NCBI GenBank assembly: GCA_918292005.1
Contig: CAKJZJ010000004.1
Coordinates: forward strand, 33,264-97,263
Direction: 5' to 3'
Length of the DNA stretch: 64,000 nucleotides
Origin: Clostridiales bacterium
GTDB lineage: Bacteria; Bacillota; Clostridia; Christensenellales; UBA1242
Below, one piece after another: positions 10,424-63,433 of this stretch. How positions within the stretch are numbered: position 1 is the stretch's first letter; every line of letters begins with the position of its first letter. A program made the translations under genes and the position numbers. The notes beneath the pieces are model-generated. The model ran no database searches. It had not been told where the DNA came from and saw nothing but the letters and a program-made list of their open reading frames with translations.

Positions 10424-10500
10424 GGGGGTATAGCTCAGTTGGCTAGAGCACCTGCCTTGCAAGCAGGGGGTCAAGAGTTCGAATCTCTTTATCTCCACCA
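10424..10500 (+). tRNA. tRNA-Ala (TGC)
   Basis: A full cloverleaf has anticodon loop CTTGCAA, an encoded CCA, and the G3:U70 pair that identifies alanine tRNAs. It is the first gene of a two-tRNA unit. Confidence 0.97.
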
Positions 10501-10503
10501 TAT

Positions 10504-10580
10504 AGAGATGTAGCTCAGCAGGTTAGAGCACCACCCTGATAAGGTGGGGGTCGGTGGTTCGAGTCCACTCATCTCTACCA
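10504..10580 (+). tRNA. tRNA-Ile (GAT)
   Basis: The acceptor stem AGAGATG pairs with CATCTCT. The anticodon loop is CTGATAA and CCA is encoded. It lies 3 bases after tRNA-Ala. Its 3' half is repeated in altered form 212 bp downstream. Confidence 0.97.
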
Positions 10581-10616
10581 AAATAATGACCATAAGGTCA
10601 TTTTTTTGTGTAAGAT
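10560..10616 (+). repeat. direct repeat copy 1: tRNA-Ile 3' end plus terminator
   Basis: These 57 bases, from the tRNA-Ile T-loop through CCA and the terminator, recur exactly at 10772-10828. Confidence 0.95.
10585..10607 (+). terminator. terminator of the tRNA-Ala/Ile unit
   Basis: Stem AATGACC/GGTCATT with an ATAA loop is followed by a run of T (10601-10607). Confidence 0.85.
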
Positions 10617-10792
10617 ACTGGTAAGACACCCACCTGGCATTTTATAAAAATGCGTGTTGTGAAACAACACATCAGGGTGGAGCCCTGTATACGAAGTATT
10701 GCCGAAAGGGCATAAGGTGGGGGGATCGGTGTGTACTCGCACGGCGAGATATTTCGTGAAAGCGAAATAGACGAGTCCACTCATCTCTACCA
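10617..10792 (+). other. hairpin-expanded tRNA-Ile-like element (element A)
   Basis: This segment aligns with tRNA-Ile from the D-arm to the CCA end but with large inserts. The anticodon stem halves (CCCACCT at 10629 and AGGTGGG at 10715) enclose five hairpins in tandem: 637-653, 654-670, 673-687, 689-699 and 700-712 (add 10000). The matching T-loop position holds two more (736-748 and 751-768). The last 20 bases equal the tRNA 3' end with CCA. Most loops are GAA, GAAA or ATA types. No 5' acceptor strand is present. It has no credible open frame. It may be a structured RNA, a degenerate tRNA or a small mobile repeat; I cannot decide which. Confidence 0.7.
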
Positions 10793-10828
10793 AAATAATG
10801 ACCATAAGGTCATTTTTTTGTGTAAGAT
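10772..10828 (+). repeat. direct repeat copy 2: tRNA-Ile 3' end plus terminator
   Basis: An exact copy of 10560-10616, it supplies element A with a CCA end and its own terminator (10797-10819). Confidence 0.95.
10797..10819 (+). terminator. duplicated terminator after element A
   Basis: The stem and T-run are the same as at 10585-10607, displaced by 212 bp as part of the direct repeat. Confidence 0.82.
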
Positions 10829-10885
10829 TTTGGTGAAACCTTATTGTATTTTTGTATCTATGTAATAATTTTGCTTTTATTCAAT

Positions 10886-10913
10886 TTGATGAAAAATAAT
10901 AATGTGTTATACT
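10886..10913 (+). promoter_or_regulatory. possible promoter of the 10941 gene
   Basis: TTGATG (10886-10891) and TATACT (10908-10913) are 16 bases apart, about 28 bases before the ATG. Confidence 0.45.
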
Positions 10914-10940
10914 ATTATTGTATTAAATAAGGATTATTAT

Positions 10941-11303
10941 ATGAAGAATTTTGGTGAATATATTAAGAATTATAGGATAACTAATAAAATCGAAAAAGAA
11001 GAATATGCAAGCAAACTTGAATTAAGTATCGCTGATTATGAAAAAATTGAAAATAATGAAACAATAATATCTAAAGACGAGCAAAAAATAATCTGTGAAA
11101 AATTGGATATAAAAAAGAAATTTAATAGTAAAAGACTAATAAAAATACTTGATTTGATTTTTAGATTGGGTGCTAATGTTATGGCTGTTGCTACTTTACT
11201 TTTGTGCATTAATGGTATTGGAACTCAAGAAACAATGATAGCAATGCTTTCTGTTGGCTTAATATTGACAACATTCACAATATTACCTAAAGTCGATAAA
11301 TAA
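10941..11303 (+). CDS. small HTH-like protein with two membrane segments
   Basis: The 120-residue product has an N-terminal part (residues about 4-62) resembling an Xre-type helix-turn-helix, including YASKLELSIADYEKIENNET. Two hydrophobic segments follow at about 70-90 and 95-113. It could be a membrane-tethered regulator, but no target is evident. The ATG at 10941 has an AAGG site and a promoter of its own. It lies directly after element A. HTH assignment is by pattern only. Confidence 0.65.
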   Translation: MKNFGEYIKNYRITNKIEKEEYASKLELSIADYEKIENNETIISKDEQKIICEKLDIKKKFNSKRLIKILDLIFRLGANVMAVATLLLCINGIGTQETMIAMLSVGLILTTFTILPKVDK

Positions 11304-11305
11304 AT

Positions 11306-11342
11306 TATTCAATCACGATTATTTCGTGGTTGAATATTTTTT
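11306..11342. terminator. bidirectional terminator of convergent genes
   Basis: Thirteen pairs (11306-11318 with 11324-11336, loop TTATT) are followed by T-rich sequence. The stop codon of the minus-strand flippase gene lies in the loop. Confidence 0.8.
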
Positions 11343-12806
11343 TGTAAATTGCTTTAGATATATTTTGATACCGTGCCTATCTAGAATATTGAATACAAAT
11401 ATTAGAGTTGTATATGTCATAATGCTTATTATTGCTGTGACTATTATTGCTATAATATTTGTTGTTAATTTATTAAATATATTGAAAACAAAATTGTCTA
11501 AAAGTAGTGTGGGTAATAGTATTAGTAAAAATGCAATTATATTTGATGTGAGATGTAGTTTTATTTTTGTTATTTTTTTTATTTTCATAGCATTGAGGAT
11601 AAATAATATGCTATTGCTAATACCTAATCCATAAGACATAGCGATAATACCTATGCGTGGTGTGGCAAATAACACAAACAATATTAATATAATGCTACTT
11701 ATTATGTAATATATAAAAGATTTAATTTCTTGGTTTAATGCGTTTAATATTGAAGATGAGATTTGTGCTAGTCCCATAGGGAGTATTATCCATGAGCTTA
11801 ATTTTAAATAATGACCTGCAATTGTATTATCAAATATATATTCGCATATTGGAATTCCTAATGTAATGAAAACGGGTAAGAATATGAATATGCATGTTAG
11901 TGTAAATTTTATATAATATCTGATTTGAACATTGATTTTTGTGTAATCAGATGCATTGCTAATTCTAGGAATTAAAATCATGCATAGTGCGCCGATAATT
12001 GTATTTGGTATGGATAGTAATGGTAGGGACATTCCCATAATAATACCCAATTCACTAAGTGCCATATTTTGACTATAGCCTATTTTTACTAGTGATAGTG
12101 GTAGGATAATGGATATTATTGGTTGCAATAGACTACTGAATATCCTAACTCCAGTTAGTGGTAAAGCGCTATCTATAATTGGTTTTAAATATCCTTTTTT
12201 ATATGCAAAATTACCATGATTTTTATAATATAGATATATTCCCAGTAGTGTACTTAGTCCACAGGCTATTGATAGTGCTAGTCCAATACTAATAATGTTT
12301 GATGTAAAAATATTCAAATGTACAAATAATAAACATAGTGCTATTCGTAATATTTGTTCTACAAATTCTACAATACTAACTGCAAAATAATTTTCTAGGC
12401 CCCATAAATATCCACGAATTTGTGAGTAAATAGCCGTAAAAATAACAGATGGTAACAAATATAGTATTAGTTCGTAGCCGATATTATTGCTGATTAGTTT
12501 TATAAACAACGGTCTTAAAAGAATGGTTATTAGTGATATTAATAACGATACAAAAGTCATAAATATCATTGAAGTTGTTACACTGTATTTTGTTTCATTT
12601 TCAGTATGTAGTGTGATATTTTTTGCAGTGATTTTAGATATGGTTAAAGGTATGCTAGAGCCAACTATGGTTATCAGCACCATGTATATAGATGTTGTTA
12701 AATTATATATGCCTAGGTCGGTTGTGGACATTATTTTTGTAATGTATATTTTATATAAAAAGCCTAGACACCTTGTAATTACACTAAACAATGTTAGCGT
12801 AAGCAT
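11319..12806 (-). CDS. SpoVB-like polysaccharide/lipid flippase (MOP superfamily)
   Basis: The 495-residue polytopic protein has about 14 predicted membrane helices and the SpoVB/Wzx/MviN fold pattern (SVITRCLGFLYKIYI near the N terminus). Relatives move lipid-linked sugars across the membrane, and SpoVB acts in spore cortex synthesis. The annotated ATG at 12806 has no Shine-Dalgarno site. In frame upstream, an ATA at 12827 lies 7 bases after a GAGG (12835-12838) and would add the MKKLIKA-type start common in this family, so a rare ATA start is plausible. The C-terminal end overlaps the shared terminator. Function beyond flippase is inferred. Confidence 0.85.
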   Translation of the reverse strand: MLTLTLFSVITRCLGFLYKIYITKIMSTTDLGIYNLTTSIYMVLITIVGSSIPLTISKITAKNITLHTENETKYSVTTSMIFMTFVSLLISLITILLRPLFIKLISNNIGYELILYLLPSVIFTAIYSQIRGYLWGLENYFAVSIVEFVEQILRIALCLLFVHLNIFTSNIISIGLALSIACGLSTLLGIYLYYKNHGNFAYKKGYLKPIIDSALPLTGVRIFSSLLQPIISIILPLSLVKIGYSQNMALSELGIIMGMSLPLLSIPNTIIGALCMILIPRISNASDYTKINVQIRYYIKFTLTCIFIFLPVFITLGIPICEYIFDNTIAGHYLKLSSWIILPMGLAQISSSILNALNQEIKSFIYYIISSIILILFVLFATPRIGIIAMSYGLGISNSILFILNAMKIKKITKIKLHLTSNIIAFLLILLPTLLLDNFVFNIFNKLTTNIIAIIVTAIISIMTYTTLIFVFNILDRHGIKIYLKQFTKKYSTTK

Positions 12807-12941
12807 AGCTTTAATTAGTTTTTTTATAAAAATACCTCAATATAGTTTTTATCATTATATTTGAAGTAAATTAATATTATTCTAATTCTGACATTAAAAT
12901 CGTATAATAGCATATATATAATTGATTTGTGTGGGGTGTTT

Positions 12942-13358
12942 ATGCAAGAAATATATTTGCTGAGAGAGGGTGAAAGTATAGATGCTTTGTCTATTGGTCA
13001 GCATCCAAAAACAATTAAAAGCGACAGAAAAATATTTGGATATAGATATATGGTAATTCAATCAGGGAATGATGATGTGTACTTTGTGAGAAACTATTAT
13101 CCTTTGTACGAGTATACTATCAAAGATAATGAAACGATATTAGATATTATGGCAAGAGGTTATAATGCAAACGATAATGGTGAGAAAGCAGGTGATACAA
13201 TTATACTTAGCAAACCAACAGCAAATAGGTATGTTGTTCAACCTATGGATACTATTCAATCCATTGCCAGTAAGTATTGTGTGGATGTAAAATATATAGT
13301 GGATATTAATCATCTAAAGTCTACCAAATTGTTTATTGGTCAAATATTATGGATATAA
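12942..13358 (+). CDS. LysM-repeat protein
   Basis: The 138-residue protein has a clear C-terminal LysM (RYVVQPMDTIQSIASKYCV, ending KLFIGQILWI) and one or two weaker LysM-like units before it. LysM binds peptidoglycan or related glycans. No signal peptide is visible, as in several spore-coat or cortex LysM proteins made in the mother cell. The ATG at 12942 follows a GGGG site. A TATAAT lies at 12903-12908. A role in the spore is only a guess from this pattern. Confidence 0.8.
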   Translation: MQEIYLLREGESIDALSIGQHPKTIKSDRKIFGYRYMVIQSGNDDVYFVRNYYPLYEYTIKDNETILDIMARGYNANDNGEKAGDTIILSKPTANRYVVQPMDTIQSIASKYCVDVKYIVDINHLKSTKLFIGQILWI

Positions 13359-13386
13359 AAAAAGTTCCTTTAATAGGAACTTTTTT
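13357..13386. terminator. bidirectional terminator
   Basis: Stem AAAGTTCCT/AGGAACTTT (13361-13369 with 13375-13383) has poly-A and poly-T flanks and separates convergent genes. Confidence 0.85.
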
Positions 13387-13387
13387 A

Positions 13388-16300
13388 TTATTTATTAGAG
13401 TCGGCATTTTTATTTGTCTTCTTTTGAGTCGTAGAAGATTTACTATTATTCTTAGTCGTTTTATGAGTGTTTTTATTGGTTTTTGCTTTTTCTTTTTCTA
13501 GTTTTTGTTGTGCTTTGTATTCAGCCTTTTTCTTCTTGGCTTCAGCTTTTGCTGCACGATATTCAGCCCACATTTGTTCTTCTTCTCTAGCTATTTCTTC
13601 GATTTCTGCCTCAATCTTTTCTATTTGTTTATTTATATATTCTTTTCTTTCTAAATATTTAGATAGGGCAAGTTTACTGGTTTCTCGTGCATTAGCCAAG
13701 CGAACATCTTTTTCATTCAATTGCTTCTGTAGAGCCATTTCTTGTTTGTCTAGTTTAGCAATGAATCGCTCATATTCTTTTTCTGCTTTGGTATTAGATA
13801 TCATTTCAGGATTATCTTTCAAAGCTTTTTCTCTAGCAGATGTTGCCTCTTTCTTCTTTATCTCAATTTCAAGTTTTTGTTTCTTTATCTCTTCTTGCTC
13901 GGAGTGAAGTTTTGTCTTTATTTCTTCAAGTTTTTCTTCAGCAAGTTTGTTGTAATCTTCTATTTCTTGGTCAATTGAGATTAATTCTGCATTTAATTCT
14001 GCAATAATTTTACGTCTAAGTTCAATCTTTTCTTTTTGGTCAATGTGTTTGTCTAAAGTTTTTCTTCTATCATAGTTTGTTCTAACTTTAGGTTTTCTAT
14101 TAAATCTAATTTTTCTAATATAATAACATATTACAGCCAATATTATTGCTAGTGCAGTGATTAAACTAGGGATTATTAGCCAGTTAAAGTTATTCTCCCA
14201 AGCATCATCTTCTTGGTCATTTGTATCTTCAGATTCTTTGTAATTAATAAATGATTTGATAGTGTTTGATGCGCTTTCACTGGTTTCACTGGTATAGGTG
14301 TCTTTATCAATACTCTTAACAACCAAGTTGTCAAATAATACTTTTCCAGAAGTTAATTGTTCGTTCGCTCCGAGTGATAGTGTGATTGTAGACTCTAGAC
14401 TTTCTTCTAGACAAACATATATAGCATATTCTTGCCACTCACCATTAGTAGAAATACCACTGATGTAGATTTCTTTTGAGTCGGTAAGTTTTATCGTTGC
14501 TCCATACATAATGTTATCTTGTGGATCGTCTTGAACTAAGTTGTTAGTCAGTACATTAATGGATATTTTGTAATATGTTTTTGCATCAAAGCTGTAAGCT
14601 TCTGGACTAATATAACCATAATAAATGTCATGCAAACTGGAAATATATAGTACATTTTTATTGTTTGATAGTGGGGTGGTTACATTATTTAGTCTAGAAT
14701 CACCTAATTGTATAATACCACTTTCTACACCAATTTTATCATCTTCTGTTAGTGTAGATGTAGGTGTCCAGTTGTTTACTTCTTGTAGAGTATTGTGATT
14801 TTTATATTGTCTATTATATGTTCTATTATCAAATGTTTCGGCACTTAAATCAACAATAACTGTTTTTACAGATGGATCTCTAAGAGAAGAGTCTGTATAT
14901 ACGATTTCTTCTATTGTTTCAAATCTTACTTCATCAAAGAAAACATATCCAGTAGTATTCTCAAATATCAAATTAATTTTGGCTGTATGAGAAGTTGTTC
15001 CTGTTTTGAATAATACTTCAATTCTATGCCAATTATTGTCTGTATAATAAATATTGAAGTAATCGCAAATAACATTATCACCAGAAGTGATTTTTAATCT
15101 AGCGCCGGTATTAATTCTTTCTTGAGAATATTGTGTGGCAACAAATAGTGAAATTCTATAATAACTATTTGAAGACATTGATAAGTCGTTACTAGTATAT
15201 GTTTGTACATTATTCTCAGCACTGCTACCTATCATTAATACATTATTGTCGGTGGATGTGTATTCAGTTAGAGCAGATAATTGAACAGGGTACATACCAG
15301 GAGTGCCATATTGTGCTAAATGATTTTCAAAATGTTGCTCGTTTGTTTTAATGACACCACTAAAAGTATTAGTTGTTTTTCCAGTACGAGTCCAGCCTGT
15401 TGGAACTAGTGGATAAGTGTCTGTATTTGTTTCATTCTCTGTTTTATCAAATGAACCATTTGTAACAGAATATTTGTCTTCTCCATTGTTTAAATTGAAG
15501 GCTGTACAATTTGTAGATGAACTATTATTAGTATATGTTTGATAATCAATACTTTGTAGTCTAAAATCGTCCACATATACATATCCAGATGTTTCAGAAT
15601 CGGTGGTACCCAACCAAATTTGAATAGTTGCTTCTTTGTTTGAATTGGATGGACCATAGATGTAGAATGAATATTCTGTCCAGTCATTTCTAAAAGTATT
15701 GCTATCTTTAGTAACAGTAGTTGCTAGTGATAATGTGGCTGTAATAGGGTCTTCGTCATCTGTTTTTTCAACTAATTTAACTGTAGCACCATTACCAACG
15801 TTGCAATCGCTTTTAGCAAAGAAACTTAATTTATAATACTTTTGACTTTCAATACTGATAGGGGTAGATTCTACGGCTTGATATGCATCTGTTTTATTGA
15901 ACATTACTAATGCATTGTCGTTATTTGCAGAACAATCAGAGCCAGGATTGTTAATTTTAGTAGATTCATCTATAGTCTCGGAATATGAATTTACATCAAC
16001 AATTTTGGCAAATTGTTTTTCATTAGAAGTATATTTGGTCGAAATTCTATCCCACAATGTAATTTCTTCAAAATTACTATTTGCTACAGGTAGAGTGTAT
16101 GGTTTGCTGAGTGATATGATATTGTAGTTGTTTGACTCATCATCGGCAGAATCTGCATATTGTTCTAGAATATTCTCGATGTAATAGTCTTCGCTATATC
16201 TAACTACTTTTACATTATTGTAGAAAACAGCGCCTTGAACATTTGCTGTTTTACTACCTAACCATAATTCTACATTTACAGTTTTTGAATCATTAGTATC

Positions 16301-16939
16301 TACATAGAATGTGTATGTTTCCCATGCACCTAGTGTAGAGAAATACTCAAATTTTGTATTGTAGTATTTTTCATCTGTATCATCTAGTAAACCAGTTAAA
16401 TATATAGATGCTCGTGCATCAGATTCATCATAATTTTCTGTTTGTTGAGTTTTTTGTGTATAAACATAAACACTTATTTCGTAGTAACTATTTGCTGCTA
16501 AAGTAAATGATTGGCTTTTGTATCCTAATTTTCCGGCACCATTATGAGAATTTATCATCAAGTTCCTGAAATATGCTTCAGATGTTTTGTCTGGGTTTGG
16601 CATGTTAGGTTTAGATGTCTTATAAGTTTCTGTATCAAAAGTAGTCTCGTCTTTCAAATTAACTATACCACTAATGATGTTGTCTTTGTTATAATGTCCA
16701 TCTACGATTGACCAACTACTATTAGGAGTAACAGGTTTTGCAGAACTAGTAGTATTAAAATCGTATTGGCTACCAATGGCCTCACTAGAAATGTCTTTGC
16801 TTATCTTGTTTGTCGTATTAGCATTAACTGTAATAGGGTTTTGTATATTCACACCTAAAAATGCTGATAGGATAATGCCGAAGCATAATAAGATGCTTAA
16901 AATAAATTTTTTGGTTTTGTTTTTATAAGTATTAATCAT
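13388..16939 (-). CDS. giant cell-surface protein with cytoplasmic coiled coil
   Basis: The 1183-residue product has a signal peptide (hydrophobic residues about 12-40 after a KNKTKK start). An extracellular region of about 870 residues follows. It repeats a beta-sandwich pattern, roughly 'YYxIxVYV ... GAxI ... WxxYxFYV ... VxLxLGxxxxxxGxVxFDxVxV', at least five times, as in carbohydrate-binding modules. A membrane helix lies at about 919-943. A tail of about 240 residues is very charged, mostly Lys/Glu coiled coil, ending in a Lys/Thr/Ser/Asn-rich stretch. The tail should be cytoplasmic. The start has a good AAAGGTG site. It stands alone on the minus strand. A link from surface glycan to the cell interior is inferred, not shown. 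Confidence 0.8.
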   Translation of the reverse strand: MINTYKNKTKKFILSILLCFGIILSAFLGVNIQNPITVNANTTNKISKDISSEAIGSQYDFNTTSSAKPVTPNSSWSIVDGHYNKDNIISGIVNLKDETTFDTETYKTSKPNMPNPDKTSEAYFRNLMINSHNGAGKLGYKSQSFTLAANSYYEISVYVYTQKTQQTENYDESDARASIYLTGLLDDTDEKYYNTKFEYFSTLGAWETYTFYVDTNDSKTVNVELWLGSKTANVQGAVFYNNVKVVRYSEDYYIENILEQYADSADDESNNYNIISLSKPYTLPVANSNFEEITLWDRISTKYTSNEKQFAKIVDVNSYSETIDESTKINNPGSDCSANNDNALVMFNKTDAYQAVESTPISIESQKYYKLSFFAKSDCNVGNGATVKLVEKTDDEDPITATLSLATTVTKDSNTFRNDWTEYSFYIYGPSNSNKEATIQIWLGTTDSETSGYVYVDDFRLQSIDYQTYTNNSSSTNCTAFNLNNGEDKYSVTNGSFDKTENETNTDTYPLVPTGWTRTGKTTNTFSGVIKTNEQHFENHLAQYGTPGMYPVQLSALTEYTSTDNNVLMIGSSAENNVQTYTSNDLSMSSNSYYRISLFVATQYSQERINTGARLKITSGDNVICDYFNIYYTDNNWHRIEVLFKTGTTSHTAKINLIFENTTGYVFFDEVRFETIEEIVYTDSSLRDPSVKTVIVDLSAETFDNRTYNRQYKNHNTLQEVNNWTPTSTLTEDDKIGVESGIIQLGDSRLNNVTTPLSNNKNVLYISSLHDIYYGYISPEAYSFDAKTYYKISINVLTNNLVQDDPQDNIMYGATIKLTDSKEIYISGISTNGEWQEYAIYVCLEESLESTITLSLGANEQLTSGKVLFDNLVVKSIDKDTYTSETSESASNTIKSFINYKESEDTNDQEDDAWENNFNWLIIPSLITALAIILAVICYYIRKIRFNRKPKVRTNYDRRKTLDKHIDQKEKIELRRKIIAELNAELISIDQEIEDYNKLAEEKLEEIKTKLHSEQEEIKKQKLEIEIKKKEATSAREKALKDNPEMISNTKAEKEYERFIAKLDKQEMALQKQLNEKDVRLANARETSKLALSKYLERKEYINKQIEKIEAEIEEIAREEEQMWAEYRAAKAEAKKKKAEYKAQQKLEKEKAKTNKNTHKTTKNNSKSSTTQKKTNKNADSNK

Positions 16940-17073
16940 ATTGTTATCACCTTTGAAGATTATTCACTTGATTATTATATACTATTTTACACATCTATTC
17001 AAGTAAATTCAAATAATAAATACATTAGTTTATATAAATAATATTAATATAAGGCTAATTTATTGTGTAGTTT

Positions 17074-17109
17074 AATTGGTCATGTCGTGTTATATTTTTG
17101 ACCAAAATT
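17074..17109. promoter_or_regulatory. inverted repeat upstream of TauE genes
   Basis: TTGGTCA (17076-17082) and TGACCAA (17099-17105) form a perfect 7-base inverted repeat 16 bases apart. It could be an operator for the exporter genes, but no regulator is nearby. Confidence 0.35.
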
Positions 17110-17166
17110 ATAAAATAATATCAATGAATTTGTGTATGATGGTGAGATGTCTAATGTAAGGTGGAT

Positions 17167-17184
17167 ATGGCAATAATTATTTAA
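17167..17184 (+). CDS. possible five-codon leader peptide
   Basis: An ATG with a strong AAGGTGG site reads Met-Ala-Ile-Ile-Ile-stop, and its TAA shares one base with the ATG of the next gene (TAATG). The exporter gene itself lacks a separate Shine-Dalgarno site, so it may be translated by coupling to this mini-frame. Confidence 0.35.
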   Translation: MAIII

Positions 17185-18046: not shown

Positions 18047-18144
18047 CAAATACTTATGTAGTCTAAATTAGTTGCTAAAAGTTGATTACTATGTTATATT
18101 GTTCGTGTATAAATGTGATTTACACATGACATTATGGAGGAAAT

Positions 18145-18312: not shown

Positions 18313-18320
18313 TATAATTT

Positions 18321-20001: not shown

Positions 20002-20081
20002 CACAAACTGTTTAATTTTTATTTTGTTTGTAAATAAAAATATAGTAGAATGTGAGAGTAAATATAAATGAGGTTATAGAT

Positions 20082-29640: not shown

Positions 29641-29690
29641 GAGTGGGGGTTAATAGATGAAATCTATTGCAGACATAGTCTGCCAAGTCC
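29641..29690 (+). other. split tRNA-Leu T-arm copy carrying two hairpins (element C)
   Basis: GTGGGGGTT (29643-29651) and CAAGTCC (29684-29690) are the two halves of the T-arm of the neighbouring tRNA-Leu. The 32 bases between them are exactly two perfect hairpins back to back (652-658 with 662-668, loop GAA; 669-674 with 678-683, loop ATA; add 29000). The copy is in the opposite orientation to the tRNA-Leu gene. A read-through transcript of the tRNA unit would therefore carry a sequence complementary to its own tRNA-Leu T-arm. It lies just beyond the unit's terminator. Nature unknown. Confidence 0.7.
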
Positions 29691-29700
29691 ATATACAAAC

Positions 29701-56050: not shown

Positions 56051-56054
56051 TTTT

Positions 56055-56087
56055 AAAAGACCATAATAATGGTCTTTTTGTTTTTTT
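56055..56087 (+). terminator. terminator after zinc-ribbon gene
   Basis: Stem AAAAGACCAT/ATGGTCTTTT with an AATA loop and T-rich tail. Confidence 0.88.
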
Positions 56088-56177
56088 AATTTGAATTTAT
56101 TTACAGAAACATGACAATTGTTTGATTATTTGGGTATTATTTGATATAATCCAATATGGATAAATGTAGGGAGAGTC

Positions 56178-56825
56178 ATGCTTCATTTTATTGGTAGTTA
56201 TTCGGGTGTAGATTTTTTAATAGTATCAATATCTTTTATTTTAGGTATTGTATTATCACTCTCTTTGCATGAATTTGCACATGCATTTGTTGCATACAAA
56301 ATGGGAGATGTAAATGTCAAGGCACAGGGAAGACTTACGATAAATCCATTAAGGCATATTGATCCTATAGGATTTTTATGTTGTGCTTTATTTGGGTTTG
56401 GTTGGGCTAGACCAGTACAAATAAATCCTAGCAATTTTAGAAATATAAAGAAAGGTATTATTTGGACTAGTATCGCTGGTGTAATTACAAATTTAATTTT
56501 ATCGTTTGTTTTCTGTGGTTTATTCAAGCTGTCATTGCTGATAAATGCAGAAAATGTGTTGGTTAATTTTATTCAATATTTTACTTATTATATGTCTCTA
56601 ATTAATATTAGTCTGGCCGTTTTCAATATTTTACCTATATATCCATTGGATGGATTCAAGTTTATTGAGGGTGTAACGAAGTACAATAATGGTTATGTAA
56701 ACTTTATGTATAGGTATGGTTCATTAATACTTTTACTATTTTTAATTTGTTTTGACTATTTATTATTCAATATGATTATGTGGGCATTTATACCTATTCA
56801 GAGTTTTTGGAATTTAATTTTTTAA
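56178..56825 (+). CDS. site-2 protease family M50 metallopeptidase (YwhC-like)
   Basis: The 215-residue membrane protein has the zinc-binding HEFAHAFVAYKMGD in the second helix and NILPIYPLDGFK in a later helix, the M50B signature. Members cleave membrane substrates, and the exact target of this short type is unknown. About six helices. It precedes scpA by nine bases, the order seen in many Firmicutes. Confidence 0.93.
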   Translation: MLHFIGSYSGVDFLIVSISFILGIVLSLSLHEFAHAFVAYKMGDVNVKAQGRLTINPLRHIDPIGFLCCALFGFGWARPVQINPSNFRNIKKGIIWTSIAGVITNLILSFVFCGLFKLSLLINAENVLVNFIQYFTYYMSLINISLAVFNILPIYPLDGFKFIEGVTKYNNGYVNFMYRYGSLILLLFLICFDYLLFNMIMWAFIPIQSFWNLIF

Positions 56826-56834
56826 TGGTTATTT

Positions 56835-57635
56835 ATGGAAGAAAAGGAAGAGAAAGTCAACGAAACAATAGAAGATGAAGAATTATCGGAAGACATTGTT
56901 TCAGATAAATTAACATTTAAATTAGACAATTTTAGTGGGCCACTAGACCTACTTCTTTCTTTGATTAAAAAGAGTAAATTGGAAATAGAAGATATTGAAT
57001 TATCTAGTCTTACAGAACAATATCTAGAGATTATGAAAGATATCTCAACGGTAGATATGGAAGTGGCTAGTGAATTTATAGAATATGCTGCTATACTTAT
57101 TGAGATTAAAAGTAAAAAATTATTGCCAAAATTAGAGACTGCTGAAGAAGATGAGCTGGATCCAGAATACATATTGAAATTAAGACTTCGTGAATATCAG
57201 ATGTTCAAAGAAGCCAATGAAAAACTAAAAGAACTAGAGAGCAATGATAAATTTTATAAACAACCAGAAAAAGAAGCGAATAAGTATAGAATTGTTCTCA
57301 AAGATATGCAATTAGATATGTTGCTTGATGCATTTGTAGGAATAATGCATAAGGTAAACAAGATAGAGAAAAACAAAGAAAGCAAAGAGATTAAAAAAGA
57401 AGAGTATACTGTCGAGCAGAAAGTATGTACTATCAAAGATGCGCTTTTGTCTAGGAATAAAATAAGTTTTAATGAATTATTCCTAGAATCATCAACAAAA
57501 GATGAAGTAATTACAACATTTTTAGCAATGCTAGAATTAATCAAGATACAGTTTATTAGAATTAGTCAAGATGATTTATTTTCTGATATACAGATAGAAA
57601 GAACGGGAGAAGAGTTTAATGGAGAACTTATCTAA
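56835..57635 (+). CDS. scpA: segregation and condensation protein A
   Basis: The 266-residue kleisin of the SMC-ScpAB complex has the N-terminal FKLDNFSGPLDLLLSLIKKS and EYAAILIEIKSKKLLP, with an acidic start and a winged-helix C terminus. It loads condensin for chromosome segregation. It overlaps scpB by 17 bases. Confidence 0.96.
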   Translation: MEEKEEKVNETIEDEELSEDIVSDKLTFKLDNFSGPLDLLLSLIKKSKLEIEDIELSSLTEQYLEIMKDISTVDMEVASEFIEYAAILIEIKSKKLLPKLETAEEDELDPEYILKLRLREYQMFKEANEKLKELESNDKFYKQPEKEANKYRIVLKDMQLDMLLDAFVGIMHKVNKIEKNKESKEIKKEEYTVEQKVCTIKDALLSRNKISFNELFLESSTKDEVITTFLAMLELIKIQFIRISQDDLFSDIQIERTGEEFNGELI

Positions 57636-58371
57636 TATAATTGAGGGTATATTGTTTGTTGCTGGTGAACCAGTTTCTTTCCTAGACATTAGTGAGAAAT
57701 TAGAGATTGAGAAGTCTGAAGTAGAAGAAGCAGTAAAAGAATTACAAAAGAGAAAAAATGAAAATTCAGAGGGGATTCAAGTATTAATTTTTAATGAAAA
57801 GGCACAGTTGTGCTCAAACAAGGCATATGCCGAGCCAATATCGGTGGTACTCAATCCAATCAAAGAGAAAATGTTAACAAAACTTGTATTGGAAGTTTGT
57901 GGAATTATTGCATACAAACAGCCAATTACTAGATTGGAAATTGAAAATATTAGAGGTGGATCACCTTGTGATTATGCTATAAATACATTGATGGAGAATA
58001 ATTTAATAGAAGTTGTGGGTAGAAAAGATGCTGTAGGACATCCTTTGCTATATGGAACCACTGATAATTTTTTAAAGAAATTCAATCTTAGTAGTATAAA
58101 AGATCTACCTGATTATGATGAATTATTGGAAAGAATAAAGGTATTACACGAAGAAACAGATAATTCATTATTTGACTTTAGGGAAATACCTGAAGAAGAG
58201 GATATAGCTGAAAATATGTCTGACGAGGAAGTAGATAGTATTATCAAAGGAATCAAAGAGACTAAAGAAGAAATTTTGGATGATAGAAATAGACTAGATG
58301 ATATTCTCGATAAGTTTGTAGATGACCTGCATAGTATTCCAGATTACACATTTGATAGTGACCAATTTTAA
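57619..58371 (+). CDS. scpB: segregation and condensation protein B
   Basis: The 250-residue protein has two winged-helix domains (IEGILFVAGEPVS; ITRLEIENIRGG). An acidic C-terminal extension of about 60 residues goes beyond the usual length. It forms the ScpB dimer that binds ScpA. Overlap with scpA implies coupled translation. Confidence 0.95.
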   Translation: MENLSNIIEGILFVAGEPVSFLDISEKLEIEKSEVEEAVKELQKRKNENSEGIQVLIFNEKAQLCSNKAYAEPISVVLNPIKEKMLTKLVLEVCGIIAYKQPITRLEIENIRGGSPCDYAINTLMENNLIEVVGRKDAVGHPLLYGTTDNFLKKFNLSSIKDLPDYDELLERIKVLHEETDNSLFDFREIPEEEDIAENMSDEEVDSIIKGIKETKEEILDDRNRLDDILDKFVDDLHSIPDYTFDSDQF

Positions 58372-58408
58372 ATTACATAAAAAGTAAATATATGTTAAAG
58401 ATAATAGT

Positions 58409-58951
58409 ATGAATTATACTATTATTTTTTTACTCTTATTTGTATGTGTTTTGAGTATTCTTATTACTATTGAAGTAGACATGAATGTGAATGTAATAAA
58501 GTGTGTCGCAGATATAAAAATTAAAATAATGCATCTGAAAATTTTGAAAATTGAAATAGGGCTCTATGGATTAACATTAAAACTAAATGGAAGTAAAAAA
58601 GTAAAATCAATAAATTTGTTTAAAATCAAACAAGAGAATTATATTATAAAACAAATTAAGACTAGCGTTATATCAAAATTGTATTTAGAAAAATTAGATG
58701 TGGGTTTTCGTTTGGGATTGATTGATAGTAAGTACACATCACAAATAAATGGGTTGTTATTATTATTTAATAATATGATTGCTATAAATAATGTAAACAA
58801 CGACATGGATTATTGTATACACGTAATGCCTGACTATGTAAATAATTGTATTGCATTAAAGGGATATGCGAAAATATATTTAACACTATTTGATATGATT
58901 TTTGCTATAGTAATGAGTATATATAAAGGAAAGCAATATGCAAAAAGATGA
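58409..58951 (+). CDS. DUF2953-like membrane protein (YtfI position)
   Basis: The 180-residue protein has an N-terminal membrane helix and a soluble beta-rich part with LKILKIEIGLYGLTLKL and LEKLDVGFRLGLIDS, resembling DUF2953 proteins. These are encoded next to gerW/ytfJ in spore formers, as here (14-base overlap). The function is unknown but is likely tied to sporulation. Confidence 0.75.
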   Translation: MNYTIIFLLLFVCVLSILITIEVDMNVNVIKCVADIKIKIMHLKILKIEIGLYGLTLKLNGSKKVKSINLFKIKQENYIIKQIKTSVISKLYLEKLDVGFRLGLIDSKYTSQINGLLLLFNNMIAINNVNNDMDYCIHVMPDYVNNCIALKGYAKIYLTLFDMIFAIVMSIYKGKQYAKR

Positions 58952-59318
58952 AAATAATATAGATAATATGATTAATGATATGTTTAAAAATATTACAGAT
59001 ATTGCCAAAAATAATATAGTTATTGGCAATATTGTTAATATTGCAGACAATATATATGTAATACCTGTAAATAAAATCAGTGTCGGTATTGTCTCTGGGG
59101 AATTTGAATTATATAATAAAAAACATAAAAATAATAGCAGTATAGGTAATGCGACTGGGTTTAATATATTTCCTATCGGCTTTGTCTGTTTGACTAATGG
59201 TGTATTAAATTATCTAAATGTTAACGAATGTGGTGACTCAAAAAAATTAATTGATTTGATTTTTAAAATGTATGATTATATATCCAATACTTTGGATTCG
59301 GGAGATGATAATGTATAA
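58938..59318 (+). CDS. gerW: GerW/YtfJ family sporulation protein
   Basis: The 126-residue protein matches GerW/YtfJ: NIVNIADNIYVIPVNKISVGI, then a Gly/Asn-containing loop and FNIFPIGFVCLTNG. In Bacillus it is forespore-expressed and needed for germination with L-alanine. It lies between the DUF2953-like gene and dacF, the usual order, overlapping both. Confidence 0.88.
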   Translation: MQKDENNIDNMINDMFKNITDIAKNNIVIGNIVNIADNIYVIPVNKISVGIVSGEFELYNKKHKNNSSIGNATGFNIFPIGFVCLTNGVLNYLNVNECGDSKKLIDLIFKMYDYISNTLDSGDDNV

Positions 59319-60447
59319 AAAATACCTAGGGCTTATATATATTGTAATTGCATTTTTAATAGTTGTTTTTAATAACTCTTTTCACGTATGTGCTTTTGAT
59401 ACAAGTGTTTTATCTTCTGCGAAAGCTATGGTTGTATTAGAAGGATATACGGATACTGTTTTATATTCTAAAAATATGGATGTAACTCTTCCTATGGCTA
59501 GTACTACTAAAATTATTACATGTATTTTAGCTATTGAGAAGTGTGATGATTTGGATGAAAAATTTGTTGTTAGTGATAATGCTATTGGTATTGAGGGAAC
59601 TAGTATATATTTGAAATCTGGTGAGTCAATGTCTATGCGTGATTTATTATACGGATTAATGCTTGCTAGTGGTAATGATTGTGCTGTTGCTATTGCTGAG
59701 AGATTGGGTGGTACCTATGATTTTGTGCATGATATGAATAGTTTTGTTGAAAGCCTTAATCTTAAAAATACACATTTTGATAATCCTCATGGTCTAGATA
59801 GTGATACTCATTATACTTCGGCATATGATTTGGCTATGATTACATCTTATGCTCTTAAAAACACTGTGTTTAGAGAGATCGTTTCTACTGAGCGATATGT
59901 TATACCTAGTACTAATGTATATAAATCTAGATATTTAAAGCATAAAAATAGACTTTTGTTTACTGATAATAATTGTGTAGGTGTAAAGACTGGTTTTACG
60001 GATAATGCAGGAAGATGTCTTGTTAATGCTCATGAAGAAAATGGAATGCAAATAATATCTGTGGTTTTGAATTGTCAGCCAATGTTTGAAGAATGTGATA
60101 GATTAACTAAAATGGCTGTGGATAAATATATGATGAAAGAGTTTATAAAACCATATAATTATGTAAGTTCTGTAGATATTGAAGATAGCAAAAAGTCTAA
60201 TATCGGTGTAATCACGATCGGTGGGTATTCTACACCTATATTAAAATCTGAAGAGAATAATTATGAAGTAAGATATAATTTGCCAGACAAACTTGTGGCA
60301 CCTATTGATTTGAATGAAATTGTGGGGACGGTAGATGTCATATATAATGGTAAAATTGTTTATTCAGGTGATTTGATTACTATAGAGGGTGCTACCAATA
60401 ATGATATTAAATACCTTTTTGATAATATTATTGATAGATGGTTCTAA
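59311..60447 (+). CDS. dacF: D-alanyl-D-alanine carboxypeptidase (DacF type)
   Basis: The 378-residue penicillin-binding protein has an N-terminal signal sequence, the SxxK motif (MASTTK), SGN (LASGNDCA) and KTG (VGVKTGFTDNAGR), with a C-terminal domain. It removes terminal D-alanine from peptidoglycan stems; DacF acts in spore cortex formation. ATG 59311 is 6 bases after GGAG, and it overlaps gerW by eight bases. The assignment to DacF rather than DacA rests on the neighbours. Confidence 0.9.
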   Translation: MYKKYLGLIYIVIAFLIVVFNNSFHVCAFDTSVLSSAKAMVVLEGYTDTVLYSKNMDVTLPMASTTKIITCILAIEKCDDLDEKFVVSDNAIGIEGTSIYLKSGESMSMRDLLYGLMLASGNDCAVAIAERLGGTYDFVHDMNSFVESLNLKNTHFDNPHGLDSDTHYTSAYDLAMITSYALKNTVFREIVSTERYVIPSTNVYKSRYLKHKNRLLFTDNNCVGVKTGFTDNAGRCLVNAHEENGMQIISVVLNCQPMFEECDRLTKMAVDKYMMKEFIKPYNYVSSVDIEDSKKSNIGVITIGGYSTPILKSEENNYEVRYNLPDKLVAPIDLNEIVGTVDVIYNGKIVYSGDLITIEGATNNDIKYLFDNIIDRWF

Positions 60448-60451
60448 TATA

Positions 60452-60477
60452 AAAGCAGGATAATAGTCCTGTTTTTT
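60452..60477 (+). terminator. terminator after dacF
   Basis: Stem CAGGA/TCCTG extended by A:T pairs, followed by T6. Confidence 0.8.
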
Positions 60478-60534
60478 ATTTGTATATGTTTGCTAAAATA
60501 TTATAAAGATAGTAAACTAATAATAGAGGTAATT

Positions 60535-61242
60535 ATGCGAATAAATAAGTATTTGGCAGAGTGTGGGCTTGGTAGTAGGAGAAAAGTAGAGCAATACATT
60601 TTGAATGGTGATATTTCAATAAATAATACAATTATCACTAATCTAGGATTCGACGTGAAAGATAATGATGTTGTATCTTTTAAAGGTAATGTATTATGCA
60701 AACAAGCAGAAAAAGTCTATATAATGCTGAATAAACCTAAATGTTATATCACTTCATTAAAAGATGAAAAAGGTAGACGCGTTGTTACAGATTTATTGAA
60801 AGGCTGTAAAGAAAAAGTATTTCCTGTTGGTAGATTGGATTATAATACCGAGGGGTTATTACTTTTAACTAACGATGGTGATTGGGCGAATAATATTATT
60901 CATCCATCTAAAAACATTGAAAAGACATACGAAGTAAAATTAAAGTATATGGCTACTAATAAGCAGATTCATGCCTTAGAGACGGGTATTTTGATTGATG
61001 GTAAAAAAACATTGCCAGCATGTGTAGAATACATGGGAGATGATAACGAATACTTTGTATACAATATAACAATTCACGAAGGTCGTAATAGAGAAATAAG
61101 AAAAATGTTTGAGTCTTTGGGTTTGAAAATATATAATTTAAAAAGAATAAGCATTGGTAGTTTACTTTTAGATGATTTACCTATGGGTAAGTATAAGTAT
61201 TTAAAAAATAACGAGATAAATTTGGTTTTTGGAGGTAAATGA
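60535..61242 (+). CDS. rluB: RluB/RsuA-family pseudouridine synthase
   Basis: The 235-residue protein has an N-terminal S4 domain (MRINKYLAECGLGSRRKVEQ) and the catalytic aspartate in PVGRLDYNTEGLLLLTNDGD, with GRNREIRKMF. It modifies 23S rRNA uridine near 2605 in the family. ATG 60535 follows GAGG. An upstream in-frame start at 60490 is not supported. It overlaps cmk. Confidence 0.93.
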   Translation: MRINKYLAECGLGSRRKVEQYILNGDISINNTIITNLGFDVKDNDVVSFKGNVLCKQAEKVYIMLNKPKCYITSLKDEKGRRVVTDLLKGCKEKVFPVGRLDYNTEGLLLLTNDGDWANNIIHPSKNIEKTYEVKLKYMATNKQIHALETGILIDGKKTLPACVEYMGDDNEYFVYNITIHEGRNREIRKMFESLGLKIYNLKRISIGSLLLDDLPMGKYKYLKNNEINLVFGGK

Positions 61243-61907
61243 TGTTAAATATTGCTGTTGATGGCCATTCTTCTTCTGGTAAAGGTGTTGTTTGCACTAG
61301 GCTTGCTAAAAAACTGGGAGTTATTCATTTCGATACAGGGGCTATTTATAGGCTTATTGCTGTGTATGTGAGAGATAATAATATCGATCCTAGAGATCAA
61401 AAAGCTGTAGAAAAGGCACTTGCAAAAATCAAAGTGGATTTAAAGCATAATGATGGTGAACAGATTACCATATTAAATGGTGTAGATGTATCTAAAACAA
61501 TAAGAGACAATGATATTAGTGATATGTGTTCTATAATTAGTCCATATCCTAAATGTAGAGATTTTGTTTTAAAAATTCAGAGAGATTCTGCTAAAAAATA
61601 TGATTTAGTTATGGAAGGCAGAGATATTACATCTCATGTATTGCCTAATGCTCCTTTTAGGTTTTTCTTGACTGCCAGTATTGATGTTAGGACAGAGAGA
61701 AGATATAATGATTTAATTAAAAAGGGCGAAAATGTTACATATGAGCAAGTAAAAGCCGATTTGATTGAAAGAGATAGAAGGGATACCCAAAGGGAATTGT
61801 CTCCATTGATTTTAACTGAGGGTACAATATATATAGACAATTCTAATATGACTATAGATGAAGAAGTTGATTTGATGTACAGAACAATAAAAGGTGAGAA
61901 CAAATGA
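61239..61907 (+). CDS. cmk: cytidylate kinase
   Basis: The 222-residue kinase phosphorylates (d)CMP. It has the P-loop DGHSSSGKGVV, DTGAIYRLIA and EGRDITSHVLPNA. An ATG at 61242 is an equally possible start. It overlaps rluB and plsC (ATGA), so rluB-cmk-plsC form one unit. Confidence 0.96.
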   Translation: MMLNIAVDGHSSSGKGVVCTRLAKKLGVIHFDTGAIYRLIAVYVRDNNIDPRDQKAVEKALAKIKVDLKHNDGEQITILNGVDVSKTIRDNDISDMCSIISPYPKCRDFVLKIQRDSAKKYDLVMEGRDITSHVLPNAPFRFFLTASIDVRTERRYNDLIKKGENVTYEQVKADLIERDRRDTQRELSPLILTEGTIYIDNSNMTIDEEVDLMYRTIKGENK

Positions 61908-62551
61908 TTTTTTGGATTTTATGGATTATTTGTATACCATGGCTTTTAATTCTATTACCAACTAGAATTATTGGAAAAAGATATTTAAAGACGATAAAAA
62001 AAAATGCGAGTATTTTTGCATGTAATCATCAGTCCAATAATGATGCTGTAATACTGAAGACGAGAGTGAATACTGGATTTAAATTTATGGCTAAAGATAG
62101 CCTTTTTAAAAAACGTTTTAATAGATGGTTTTTTAAAAAATTAGGTATGTATCCCGTGAAGCGTGGCGGTAACGATATAGATGCAGTTAAAAAGACTCTT
62201 GTTTATTTAAAAAATAATAAATCGATAGTAATCTTTCCAGAAGGTACAAGAGTAAAAGAGGGCGAGAGTGCTGAATTTAAAAATGGTTTGGTGCTATTCG
62301 CTATAAAATCAGATTGTTATGTAATACCGGCAGTATTTAGGAGCAAACCAAAGTTTTTTTCTAGAAGTACTTTGCTAATTGGTAAGCCTTTTAAATTTTC
62401 TGAATATGATGAATTTAATGGAGTGAAACCCAACAAAGATATTTTAAACGATGCTAGCAGTCTATTGTCTCAAAAAATGAATGAATTAAAAACAGTGGAC
62501 ATCAAGGAATATAAAAAACAAATCAAAGATGAGTTTAAAAAGAAAAAGTAG
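61904..62551 (+). CDS. plsC: 1-acyl-sn-glycerol-3-phosphate acyltransferase
   Basis: The 215-residue protein has an N-terminal membrane helix, the NHQSNNDAV (HX4D) catalytic motif and FPEGTRVKEG. It acylates lysophosphatidate, the step after PlsY. In many Clostridia ispH follows; here it does not. Confidence 0.93.
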   Translation: MIFWILWIICIPWLLILLPTRIIGKRYLKTIKKNASIFACNHQSNNDAVILKTRVNTGFKFMAKDSLFKKRFNRWFFKKLGMYPVKRGGNDIDAVKKTLVYLKNNKSIVIFPEGTRVKEGESAEFKNGLVLFAIKSDCYVIPAVFRSKPKFFSRSTLLIGKPFKFSEYDEFNGVKPNKDILNDASSLLSQKMNELKTVDIKEYKKQIKDEFKKKK

Positions 62552-62572
62552 TAATCAAATACTACTTTTTTA
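62543..62572. terminator. bidirectional terminator after plsC
   Basis: Stem AAAAAGTAGTA/TACTACTTTTT with a six-base loop. It overlaps the end of both convergent genes. Confidence 0.85.
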
Positions 62573-63121
62573 TATATATTCCAAGATTTCTTTAAATTCT
62601 GTGTATCCTGTCTCCGAATTGATATGACCAGCGCCATGTAATACTATTTGCTTTGTTGCTATTTGATCGGCGAAATTTTTTTCTGCATCAAATTTTACAT
62701 ATGGGTCATTATCAGAATAGAAACAAATAATACTATCACAATAATGTTTAATTAATTCTAAATTGTCAGTATACATAGTTTTATTTACTGTGTCATATTC
62801 GTAATTTATACCAAAATAATTATTAAAACCACATACGAAAATCAATTTATTTACTGTTATTTTGTGTTCAATTAGGTATTTACATATAAAGACAGGTGCG
62901 ATACTATGAGCAATTATAGTTGTGTCAGAATTGATTAGACCCATTTTGTAGTACACATCCATTAGATTGCTCCAGTTATCATAATTCTGTAAATCTATAC
63001 CGATGGGAAAATCTGGTGTATATACAGAGTTGTTTTTTTCAATTAAAAATTTTGCTAGCCAATTAAACCAATTAGAGTGTGGTGTTCCAAATGAGCCATG
63101 AATTATAAAGTAATTATTCAT
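62570..63121 (-). CDS. RBBP9/YdeN-type alpha/beta hydrolase
   Basis: The 183-residue protein has IIHGSFGTPHSNW, the nucleophile serine in IAHSIAP (a GxSxG variant), CFYSDNDPYV with the acid and GAGHIN with the histidine. Substrates of this family are mostly unknown. GAGG stands 8 bases before the ATG. It is a single gene between plsC and the tRNA unit. Confidence 0.88.
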   Translation of the reverse strand: MNNYFIIHGSFGTPHSNWFNWLAKFLIEKNNSVYTPDFPIGIDLQNYDNWSNLMDVYYKMGLINSDTTIIAHSIAPVFICKYLIEHKITVNKLIFVCGFNNYFGINYEYDTVNKTMYTDNLELIKHYCDSIICFYSDNDPYVKFDAEKNFADQIATKQIVLHGAGHINSETGYTEFKEILEYI

Positions 63122-63167
63122 ATCTTAACCTCGATCAGTTTAATTATAACAAAAATAATCTAATATT

Positions 63168-63220
63168 AAAACAAAAAAACACCTGAAAGGTGTAGAAAGT
63201 GGTGGGAGGGGATGGATTCG
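63168..63220 (-). repeat. direct repeat copy 2: tRNA-Tyr 3' end plus terminator
   Basis: This repeats 63318-63369 with one inserted A: T-loop to CCA of tRNA-Tyr and the terminator that follows. It gives element B a CCA end and a terminator (hairpin at about 63179-63193). Confidence 0.93.
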
Positions 63221-63317
63221 TCAATGTGCTGAAAGCATATTTGTCACGAAAGTGACTACCTAGATGGTTCGCATGACGGAAGACATGATCAGGTAAAAAC
63301 TGCAAAATCCATACCCG
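63221..63317 (-). other. hairpin-chain tRNA-Tyr-like element (element B)
   Basis: On the minus strand, between the terminator of tRNA-Tyr and a second copy of its 3' end, lie about 97 bases with four hairpins: 223-241 (loop TGAAA), 243-256 (loop GAAA), and a longer one at 257-295 that contains another (272-287) (add 63000). The 5' edge GGGTATGGATT can pair with AATCCATCCC of the tRNA-derived 3' end, closing a long stem, and TTGCAG also occurs at the start of tRNA-Tyr. There is no open frame. Confidence 0.7.
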
Positions 63318-63369
63318 AAAACAAAAAAACACCTGAAAGGTGTAGAAGTGGTGGGAGGGGATGGATTCG
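63318..63369 (-). repeat. direct repeat copy 1: tRNA-Tyr 3' end plus terminator
   Basis: The original of the repeat, covering the terminator and the tRNA-Tyr 3' end up to its T-loop. Confidence 0.93.
63322..63343 (-). terminator. terminator of the five-tRNA unit
   Basis: Stem ACACCT/AGGTGT with a 3-base loop, followed on the minus strand by T7. Confidence 0.85.
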
Positions 63370-63433
63370 AACCATCGAAGCCGGAGGCGACGGATTTACA
63401 GTCCGTTGCATTTGACCGCTCTGCAACCCTCCC
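63349..63433 (-). tRNA. tRNA-Tyr (GTA)
   Basis: Class II tRNA with long variable arm, anticodon loop CTGTAAA and encoded CCA. Last gene of the unit. Confidence 0.97.

Follow-up and report, generated by a model that had tools for sequence, protein, structure and literature searches.

Integrons gather gene cassettes into arrays at a docking site. One class of elements that integrate at tRNA genes crosses over in the T-loop, and the tRNA is made whole again by a block of identity that extends from there to its 3′ end. Repetitive extragenic palindromic (REP) repeats form hairpins, carry a GTAG motif and are associated with a Y1 transposase (RAYT). The attC sites of integrons, as part of one account describes them, are used through their bottom strand and have extrahelical bases (PMC3053210). 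According to portions of a second account, the last 20 bases of tRNA-Lys stand in varying copy number ahead of certain islands, and tycheposons are cargo elements of 4–200 kb (PMC10872708). Here we describe a family of hairpin-rich elements found beside tRNA genes in a stretch of 64,000 nucleotides (the window) from a Clostridiales bacterium of the UBA1242 lineage (assembly GCA_918292005.1, contig CAKJZJ010000004.1, positions 33,264–97,263 of the forward strand). An element typically copies parts of the tRNA that it follows and, when complete, contains a core with a conserved fold, which is usually preceded by two hairpins set in an antisense T-arm. In our view the chances are evenly balanced that these elements are the structured attachment sites of an integron-like gene-cassette system which docks at tRNA and transfer-messenger RNA (tmRNA) genes.

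Anatomy of the elements

The window contains 14 tRNA genes in four units, as located by ARAGORN. Hairpin-rich sequence derived from the tRNA is present 3′ of tRNA-Ile (element A), tRNA-Leu(tag) (element B) and tRNA-Tyr (element C), and no element follows the tRNA-Lys(ctt) unit. An earlier inspection of the window from its letters alone (the sequence-only reading) had reported all three as being built from the last tRNA of their units; all three are indeed present, and the pattern is wider than was noted there. Elements A and C are full-length, while B is truncated and consists of an antisense T-arm and two hairpins without the core.

Read on the tRNA strand, the 5′ part of the element comprises the antisense copy of the T-stem 3′ strand, a first and a second hairpin, and the antisense T-loop with the T-stem 5′ strand. 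The 3′ part comprises a sense T-stem remnant of varying length, the core (P3 and P4) and the tRNA sequence from C56 to CCA, after which a copy of the terminator often closes the element. Because the element typically carries the tRNA from C56 to CCA, often together with the terminator, the tRNA gene stays intact when a unit joins it. Four bases are well kept in the 85 distinct cores that we collected (the junction C in 82, the first G in 84, the T in 82 and the A in 79), and NCCA is found 8–40 bases after the core in 73 of the 85 elements, compared with 294 of 850 random positions. Ile elements additionally contain a sense and an antisense copy of the anticodon arm, each with hairpins set in the loop.

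Element A (10627–10828, plus strand) follows the tRNA-Ala(TGC) and tRNA-Ile(GAT) genes (10424–10580) and the first copy of the terminator and spacer (10581–10616). It opens with an antisense tRNA-Ile anticodon arm (10627–10680), the loop of which is split by two perfect hairpins (10637–10653 and 10654–10670), and continues with a sense copy of the same arm, again with hairpins in the loop (10681–10724). The T-stem 5′ remnant and the conserved core occupy 10725–10772, with P3 at 10733–10748 and P4 at 10749–10772. The tRNA-Ile 3′ part (T-loop end, T-stem, acceptor strand and CCA; 10773–10792) is identical to the tRNA 3′ end, and the second copy of the terminator and spacer (10793–10828) is identical to the first at 36 of 36 bases. 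The bottom strand of the element folds at −34.8 kcal/mol with DNA parameters (z = −5.65 against dinucleotide shuffles). The antisense anticodon-arm plan recurs with compensatory stem changes in three relatives (G002, G006 and G012), and the hairpin stems of Ile elements change on both sides between species (GCATTTT/AAAATGC, GCATTAC/GTAATGC and GCATTGC/GCAATGC).

Elements B and C lie on the minus strand. In element B the antisense T-arm of tRNA-Leu(TAG) (29643–29691) is split by two perfect hairpins (29669–29683 and 29652–29668). Element C (63172–63316) follows tRNA-Tyr and its first terminator copy (63318–63348). The antisense tRNA-Tyr T-arm (63306–63316 and 63263–63272) encloses imperfect hairpins within 63263–63316; it is followed by the core (63220–63260; P3 at 63243–63260 and P4 at 63220–63242), by the tRNA-Tyr 3′ part including CCA (63200–63219) and by the second terminator copy (63172–63199), which exceeds the first by one base where the two were compared. 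The proposal that strings of short perfect hairpins fill the T-loop is correct for the sense half of the element, but an antisense T-arm precedes it and element A also copies the anticodon arm in both senses; perfect hairpins are seen in B and in the antisense anticodon arm of A, but the upstream hairpins of C are imperfect.

Units occur in tandem at some loci, and the tandem copies are nearly identical. At one locus (L198, around 1440–1560) a core is nested within the P4 loop of another, and two further loci (L173 and L175) have nested P3-like hairpins; these nested forms look as if the core itself could insert. We also note a longer and different core of about 90 bases (TCGGTCC...CCAGACCGC...GTTGCTCCCGGCT, with variants) at tRNA-Asn of G002 (L060), tRNA-Met of G006 (L085) and tRNA-Ile of G032 (L038). 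It occupies the same T-loop position and is found in two genera. The operon of G004 (L036) contains, between tRNA-Ala and tRNA-Ile, a pseudo-tRNA-Ile 5′ half whose anticodon loop has hairpins.

Occurrence at tRNA and tmRNA genes

The source genome (G000) is a 1.2 Mb draft in 19 contigs with an estimated completeness of 96.4%. It gave 35 tRNA matches, one of which (C6:893-967) was not found by ARAGORN and was left out of the unit count. The element is carried by 15 of the 22 tRNA unit ends examined and by the tmRNA gene (L148). The carriers are Ile, Leu-tag (truncated), Tyr, Thr-cgt, Gly-gcc (with a different core), Leu-taa, Glu, Asn, Arg-acg (behind a 219-residue open reading frame, ORF), Gln-ctg, Ser-tga, Leu-cag, Ser-cga, Leu-gag and Ser-gga (truncated). 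Six unit ends were read as free of the element (Lys-ctt, Thr-ggt, Gly-ccc, Trp, Met and Arg-ccg), and Ser-gct was counted in neither class. All five multi-gene units and ten of the 17 single-gene units carry it, so that the association with multi-gene units drawn by the sequence-only reading was an accident of the window. The single-gene carriers, the tmRNA site and the gene cargo described below all lie outside the window and were therefore not visible to that reading.

For the search of related genomes we used R1, a covariance model of the core built from 30 hand-picked cores in a MAFFT alignment (A1). It replaced a first core pattern, which was dropped as it matched the source genome only. 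R1 recovers the cores of element A (L001:1729-1776, E = 2.2e-9) and element C (L003:1270-1317, E = 1.8e-9), each of which is itself one of the 30 in the model. At E ≤ 0.05 R1 matched 12 of 60 genomes, the source genome included; three of these (G015, G025 and G030) were set aside by eye as coding-like sequence, leaving G023 and eight of the 13 genomes that represent the genus, the other five of which have no match. Under strict filters there was no match in 24 genomes of the other families of the order. A wider search at E ≤ 0.001 matched 19 of 247 genomes of the family, taken from a larger set (g1, 8; g12, 6; g59, 2; g53, 1; g54, 1; g4, 1), of which the g4 genome is the false G015, and all ten new loci from this search (L190–L199) show the element or its core. 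A DNA search with the element A segment, which includes the tRNA tail, matched ten of the 60 genomes with the source genome counted, the match in G005 being to the tail only. Absence from close relatives and assembly error had been named as ways in which the pattern could be spurious; the distribution within the genus does not bear out the first, and the second is unlikely given that separately assembled genomes show the element. The same segment gave no match in phages and one core pattern gave none in viral contigs, on which basis a phage origin was rejected. A pattern scan of named genomes gave matches in Paenibacillus, Cohnella and others that may be chance; four of those in the first two genera (L119, L124, L126 and L128) are equal in length and possibly a coding coincidence.

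After the Ala–Ile unit, elements are found in G002, G004, G012 and G032, in tandem in all of these except G012, and a partial element is found in G006. An automatic test for an own-tail copy or a core after the unit end was applied to seven genomes, in stretches around part of their tRNA genes, and was positive at 7/13 unit ends in G002, 1/1 in G004, 1/12 in G005, 7/18 in G006, 0/7 in G009, 9/13 in G012 and 3/10 in G032; this test is cruder than reading, as it misses the partial element after G006 tRNA-Ile, and its matches were only partly checked. Of the 74 unit ends in these genomes, 24 are followed by a copy of the unit's own tRNA tail; with tails of other amino acids the figure is 47 of 4980 comparisons. 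Recurrence after other tRNA units in related genomes, which the sequence-only reading had proposed as a check, is observed.

For 61 of the 85 distinct cores, a tRNA or tmRNA gene could be detected no more than 1 kb upstream in the stretch of DNA retrieved. Four of these genes are tmRNA genes, and the rest cover 22 tRNA species as judged by anticodon. The element's 3′ part matches the neighbouring gene with a mean identity of 0.843, compared with 0.500 for other ends, and the neighbour is the best match of all in 44 of the 61.

Fold, cargo and candidate machinery

Covariation in the core was assessed on two alignments. The first, A1, consists of the hand-picked cores from which R1 was built, so that its figures lean towards the named structure; the second, A2, is fitted to R1, takes matches up to E = 0.5 from 77 loci picked for holding R1 matches or tRNA units, and its figures lean upward. 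With that understood, the 79 distinct cores of A2 have 84.3% of cells paired (67.5 in shuffles), 115 double changes (31.7) and a covariation score of 0.305 (0.089), with slid versions reaching at most 0.118. Further pair types are not above shuffles (17 compared with 16.4), and the third helix is weaker, with 72.5% paired. The most variable pair (5/147) occurs as CG in 33 cores, UA in 26 and GC in 18, and is paired in 77 of 78 with no G–U. The result from A1 is the same in kind. At least two hairpins stand just upstream of the core in 44 of the 85 distinct elements, compared with a mean of 3.7 and a maximum of 7 in 20 mononucleotide shuffles. Since the fold beats shuffles, the upstream hairpins exceed them and the tRNA's own tail recurs at unit ends, the elements are not products of chance.

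Nine intervals, from tRNA to element or from element to element, contain genes, seven having one ORF and two having two. At tRNA-Asn of G006 a GNAT protein of 185 residues lies between the tRNA and the first core, and a peptidase S51 (267 residues) and an FGase-like protein (211 residues, below the Pfam cut-off) lie between the first and second cores. Further GNAT proteins are found at Arg-tcg of G004 (190 residues) and, in the opposite direction, at Ser-tga of G002 (167 residues), and a DUF4097 protein of 269 residues, also in the opposite direction, is found at Leu-gag of G005. The remaining cargo has no Pfam match where it was searched: 86- and 202-residue proteins at Arg-acg of G012; a 299-residue protein at Leu-tag of G012, where the second core is truncated; a 219-residue protein at Arg-acg of G000, flanked by the tRNA and by a degenerate tail that carries the element; and, at Leu-taa of G006, a relative of the 202-residue protein, between an element and a copied tail with a terminator and partial element. 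One protein had been read as NUDIX-like; it has no Pfam match and the identity was dropped. No integrase family was found among the Pfam-searched ORFs of the nine intervals, the G006 Leu-taa ORF being judged through the 99% identical relative that G012 has. Observed units range from about 0.15 to 2.1 kb.

Two of the cargo genes recur beside another tRNA in another species, and it is because some sites flank such single genes that they look like cassette docking points. The GNAT genes at tRNA-Asn of G006 and tRNA-Arg(tcg) of G004 are 88% identical as protein and 82.95% as DNA over 569 bp. The G004 unit is possibly a recombinant, as the 3′ part that follows its first core does not correspond to tRNA-Arg (identity 0.39). 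The 202-residue gene at tRNA-Arg(acg) of G012 and its relative at tRNA-Leu(taa) of G006 are 99% identical as protein over the stretch compared and 94.5% as DNA over 822 bp; this identity runs to the CCA, and beyond that point the two loci differ, each continuing with a terminator and an antisense arm of its own. More distant pairs are the FGase-like proteins at Asn of G006 and Met/Glu of G005 (57% as protein; 67.9% as DNA over 616 bp) and a 226-residue protein at Leu-taa/Val of G000 and Leu-gag of G005 (68%; 72.4% over 519 bp). The 167-residue GNAT at Ser-tga is also present in G012 (90%), and it shows no movement because the tRNA is the same in both genomes. In the window, a Ser_hydrolase (PF06821) gene (62570–63121, minus strand) directly follows element C in the direction of the tRNA and is a possible cassette gene, though it is not closed by a second element. 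The window also contains a 1183-residue ORF (13388–16939, minus strand) with no NCBIfam match at E = 0.001.

G000 has two tyrosine recombinases (PF00589). One (L202:1042-2112, 356 residues) is XerS-like, scoring 187.9 bits, below the cut-off of 267. The other is an island-type integrase of 464 residues (C9:34550-35149; L221:922-2316) about 1.6 kb from tRNA-Thr(ggt). As these are the only two PF00589 proteins, the genome seems to have one XerS-like recombinase in place of separate XerC and XerD. We note that tRNA-Thr(ggt), beside the island-type integrase, is an element-free unit end and that a further gene (L221:2355-3500) follows the integrase. PF00589 is present in 16 of 18 genomes searched, and most have a counterpart of the XerS-like protein by length and score, XerS-likeness itself having been tested in G000 only. 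This recombinase of about 350 residues is the sole candidate with counterparts in most genomes searched, and it is only a candidate. Two other origins were rejected on domain searches of 11 genomes: a retro-element, reverse transcriptase PF00078 being absent from eight of them (including G000, G004 and G012), and a serine recombinase, PF00239 being absent from G000, G004, G005 and G011.

The strand on which such a system might act is suggested by the loops and mismatches of the hairpins. Among 88 three-base loops, GNA is read on the bottom strand in 39 and on the top in two, about 11% being expected on the bottom from loop composition; among 67 four-base loops, GNNA is read on the bottom in 30 (17 GNRA and 13 GNYA) and on the top in four. 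In 22 of 26 distinct imperfect core hairpins the mismatches are A·C, TC·TC or C·C on the top strand, which correspond to G·T, tandem GA (GA·GA) and G·G on the bottom. Loops and mismatches of these kinds would be stable when the DNA is single-stranded. The substrate would perhaps be the bottom strand, the complement of the tRNA sense strand, folded as single-stranded DNA, and a tyrosine recombinase would exchange strands in the T-loop or T-stem beside the core, so that units are added or removed, which is how integrons work at attC. In appearance the units are integrated elements in which a crossover in the T-loop rebuilds the tRNA each time, with an order resembling that of integron cassettes and folded sites resembling attC. 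We put forward only tentatively, and with some doubt, the more specific idea that this is a gene-capture system apart from integrons, with parallel docking at tRNA and tmRNA genes and T-arm sites that recombine as folded single-stranded DNA, perhaps through the XerS-like recombinase of the host; reduced genomes would then have a dozen or more loci at which single genes could be exchanged. If the cassette reading is right, cassette capture by folded sites would extend beyond integrons, with many parallel tRNA docking sites in one small genome, and these uncultured relatives of the Clostridia would have a route for single-gene swapping. The system would bear on the open question of the origin of attC and would account for repeated fragments of tRNA 3′ ends, which annotation may overlook or miscall.

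A number of observations weigh against a cassette system. The nine gene-bearing intervals are few beside 85 distinct cores, most of which do not adjoin one, and elements A, B and C enclose no gene. For 24 of the 85 cores no tRNA or tmRNA gene was detectable within 1 kb in the stretch examined, some of these being second copies behind cargo, at contig ends or after degraded tRNAs. Among the shared genes, the FGase-like pair has no R1 element at the G005 locus and the 226-residue pair has an element on one side only; shared cargo could also have moved by homologous recombination between repeats. Neither an excised circle nor a recombination event was seen. No dedicated recombinase was recognized, G000 having only the XerS-like and island-type enzymes (in a draft from which a gene may be missing); the element-free G009 and G011 have counterparts of the XerS-like protein, and that of G002 has an internal stop. 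The second hairpin of element A has its GAA loop on the top strand, contrary to the overall trend. With DNA parameters, the bottom strand has the better fold in 69 of 78 elements, but so it has in 66 of the shuffles, and folding energy was rejected as a test of strand because shuffles behave alike. Finally, the attC boxes RYYYAAC...GTTRRRY occur in order in none of the 79 elements with distinct cores (shuffled mean 0.8), and membership of attC was rejected since the R″ and R′ boxes are absent.

Competing explanations and comparison with known systems

Readings of the elements as transposons, decoy RNAs or template-switch scars are less supported than the cassette reading. Of the three ideas offered by the sequence-only reading, a tRNA-targeted structured repeat family is the closest. 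In the form in which non-autonomous palindromic repeats of the REP, bacterial interspersed mosaic element (BIME) or miniature inverted-repeat transposable element (MITE) kind insert at T-arms through a transposase, the genes between them being bystanders, we consider it unlikely. The GTA at the foot of the P3 hairpin resembles the REP GTAG, the nested cores and hairpins of L198, L173 and L175 are what insertion of a repeat might leave, and two copies (L153 and L155) lie where no intact tRNA gene was found. Simple insertion nevertheless fails to explain antisense and sense arms that match each tRNA, or the duplicated tail and terminator. The Y1 transposase PF01797 was not found in five of the eight element-bearing genomes of the genus (G000, G001, G004, G005 and G006); it was found in G002, G007 and G012 and in two of the five element-free genomes (G009 and G010). 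As it does not track the element, a REP/RAYT system was rejected. G000 lacks PF00078 and PF00239, DDE transposases not having been searched for.

It is less probable still that the elements are structured RNAs, acting as decoys, antisense RNAs or regulators of tRNA maturation and made by read-through of tRNA operons. They lie downstream on the tRNA strand, mostly end in CCA and fold far better than shuffles, and at four g12 loci (L193, L194, L196 and L197) no terminator is seen between tRNA and element. In G000, however, a terminator-like hairpin usually stands between the two, and the presence of an element at a given tRNA is patchy among relatives. The hairpin stems also lack the wobble bias of RNA: 737 stem pairs in 108 distinct hairpins upstream of the core include six G–T, five A–C and 18 other mismatches, so that G–T and A–C are about equal, unlike the tRNA stems of G002, G004–G006, G009, G012 and G032, with 107 G–T and six A–C in 1308 pairs (the terminators of these seven genomes have ten and three in 583). 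At the most variable core pair, none of 44 double changes is to G–U. These counts weaken the decoy idea of the sequence-only reading. A known RNA family was rejected, as only tRNAs exceeded the Rfam gathering cut-off in the window and 12 element loci.

Least probable of all is neutral debris, in which tandem duplication of tRNA tails was followed by hairpin-templated replication errors (quasipalindrome correction): stems that are near-perfect but free in sequence, and tandem copies that are nearly identical, are as templated correction would give, but neither this nor pure template-switch scars explain a core sequence common to different tRNAs and genera, its covarying pairs or mismatches that recur at fixed places.

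In the open-licence full-text literature we recognized no description of this element family, and its novelty, as judged from that literature, is provisional. The sequence-only reading knew of no described class for a recurring, structured, tRNA-matched family, and we likewise found none that fits. The elements resemble REP and BIME repeats in being short and hairpin-forming and in the GTA at the hairpin foot, and differ in that a Y1 transposase does not track them and that tRNA-specific arms are copied at each site. With elements that integrate at tRNA genes they share the identity block from the T-loop to the 3′ end; most of the present units are too small for an integrase, and an antisense T-arm with hairpins precedes the site. 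Additive islands and tycheposons, so far as the portions of their account used here describe them, likewise have cargo beside tRNA genes with repeated tRNA tails. The present sites differ from both in having a fold and a conserved core and in occurring at tmRNA as well as 22 tRNA species, and the units from tycheposons in their smaller size and in having no recombinase gene recognized in the gene-bearing intervals.

The cassette reading likens the elements to the sites of integrons. Neither tyrosine recombinase of G000 is an integron integrase by TIGR02249 (cut-off 265), the XerS-like protein scoring 68.1 bits and the island-type integrase 37.5. The docking sites here are tRNA and tmRNA genes, each site copies its own tRNA, and cores far outnumber gene-bearing intervals; the core also keeps conserved sequence. 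The loops and mismatches hint that the bottom strand may be favoured, as it is in attC, but the strand difference in folding energy is no greater than in shuffles. As with attC, single genes lie between imperfect palindromic sites in which structure is kept over sequence, and the units form tandem arrays at a fixed docking site.

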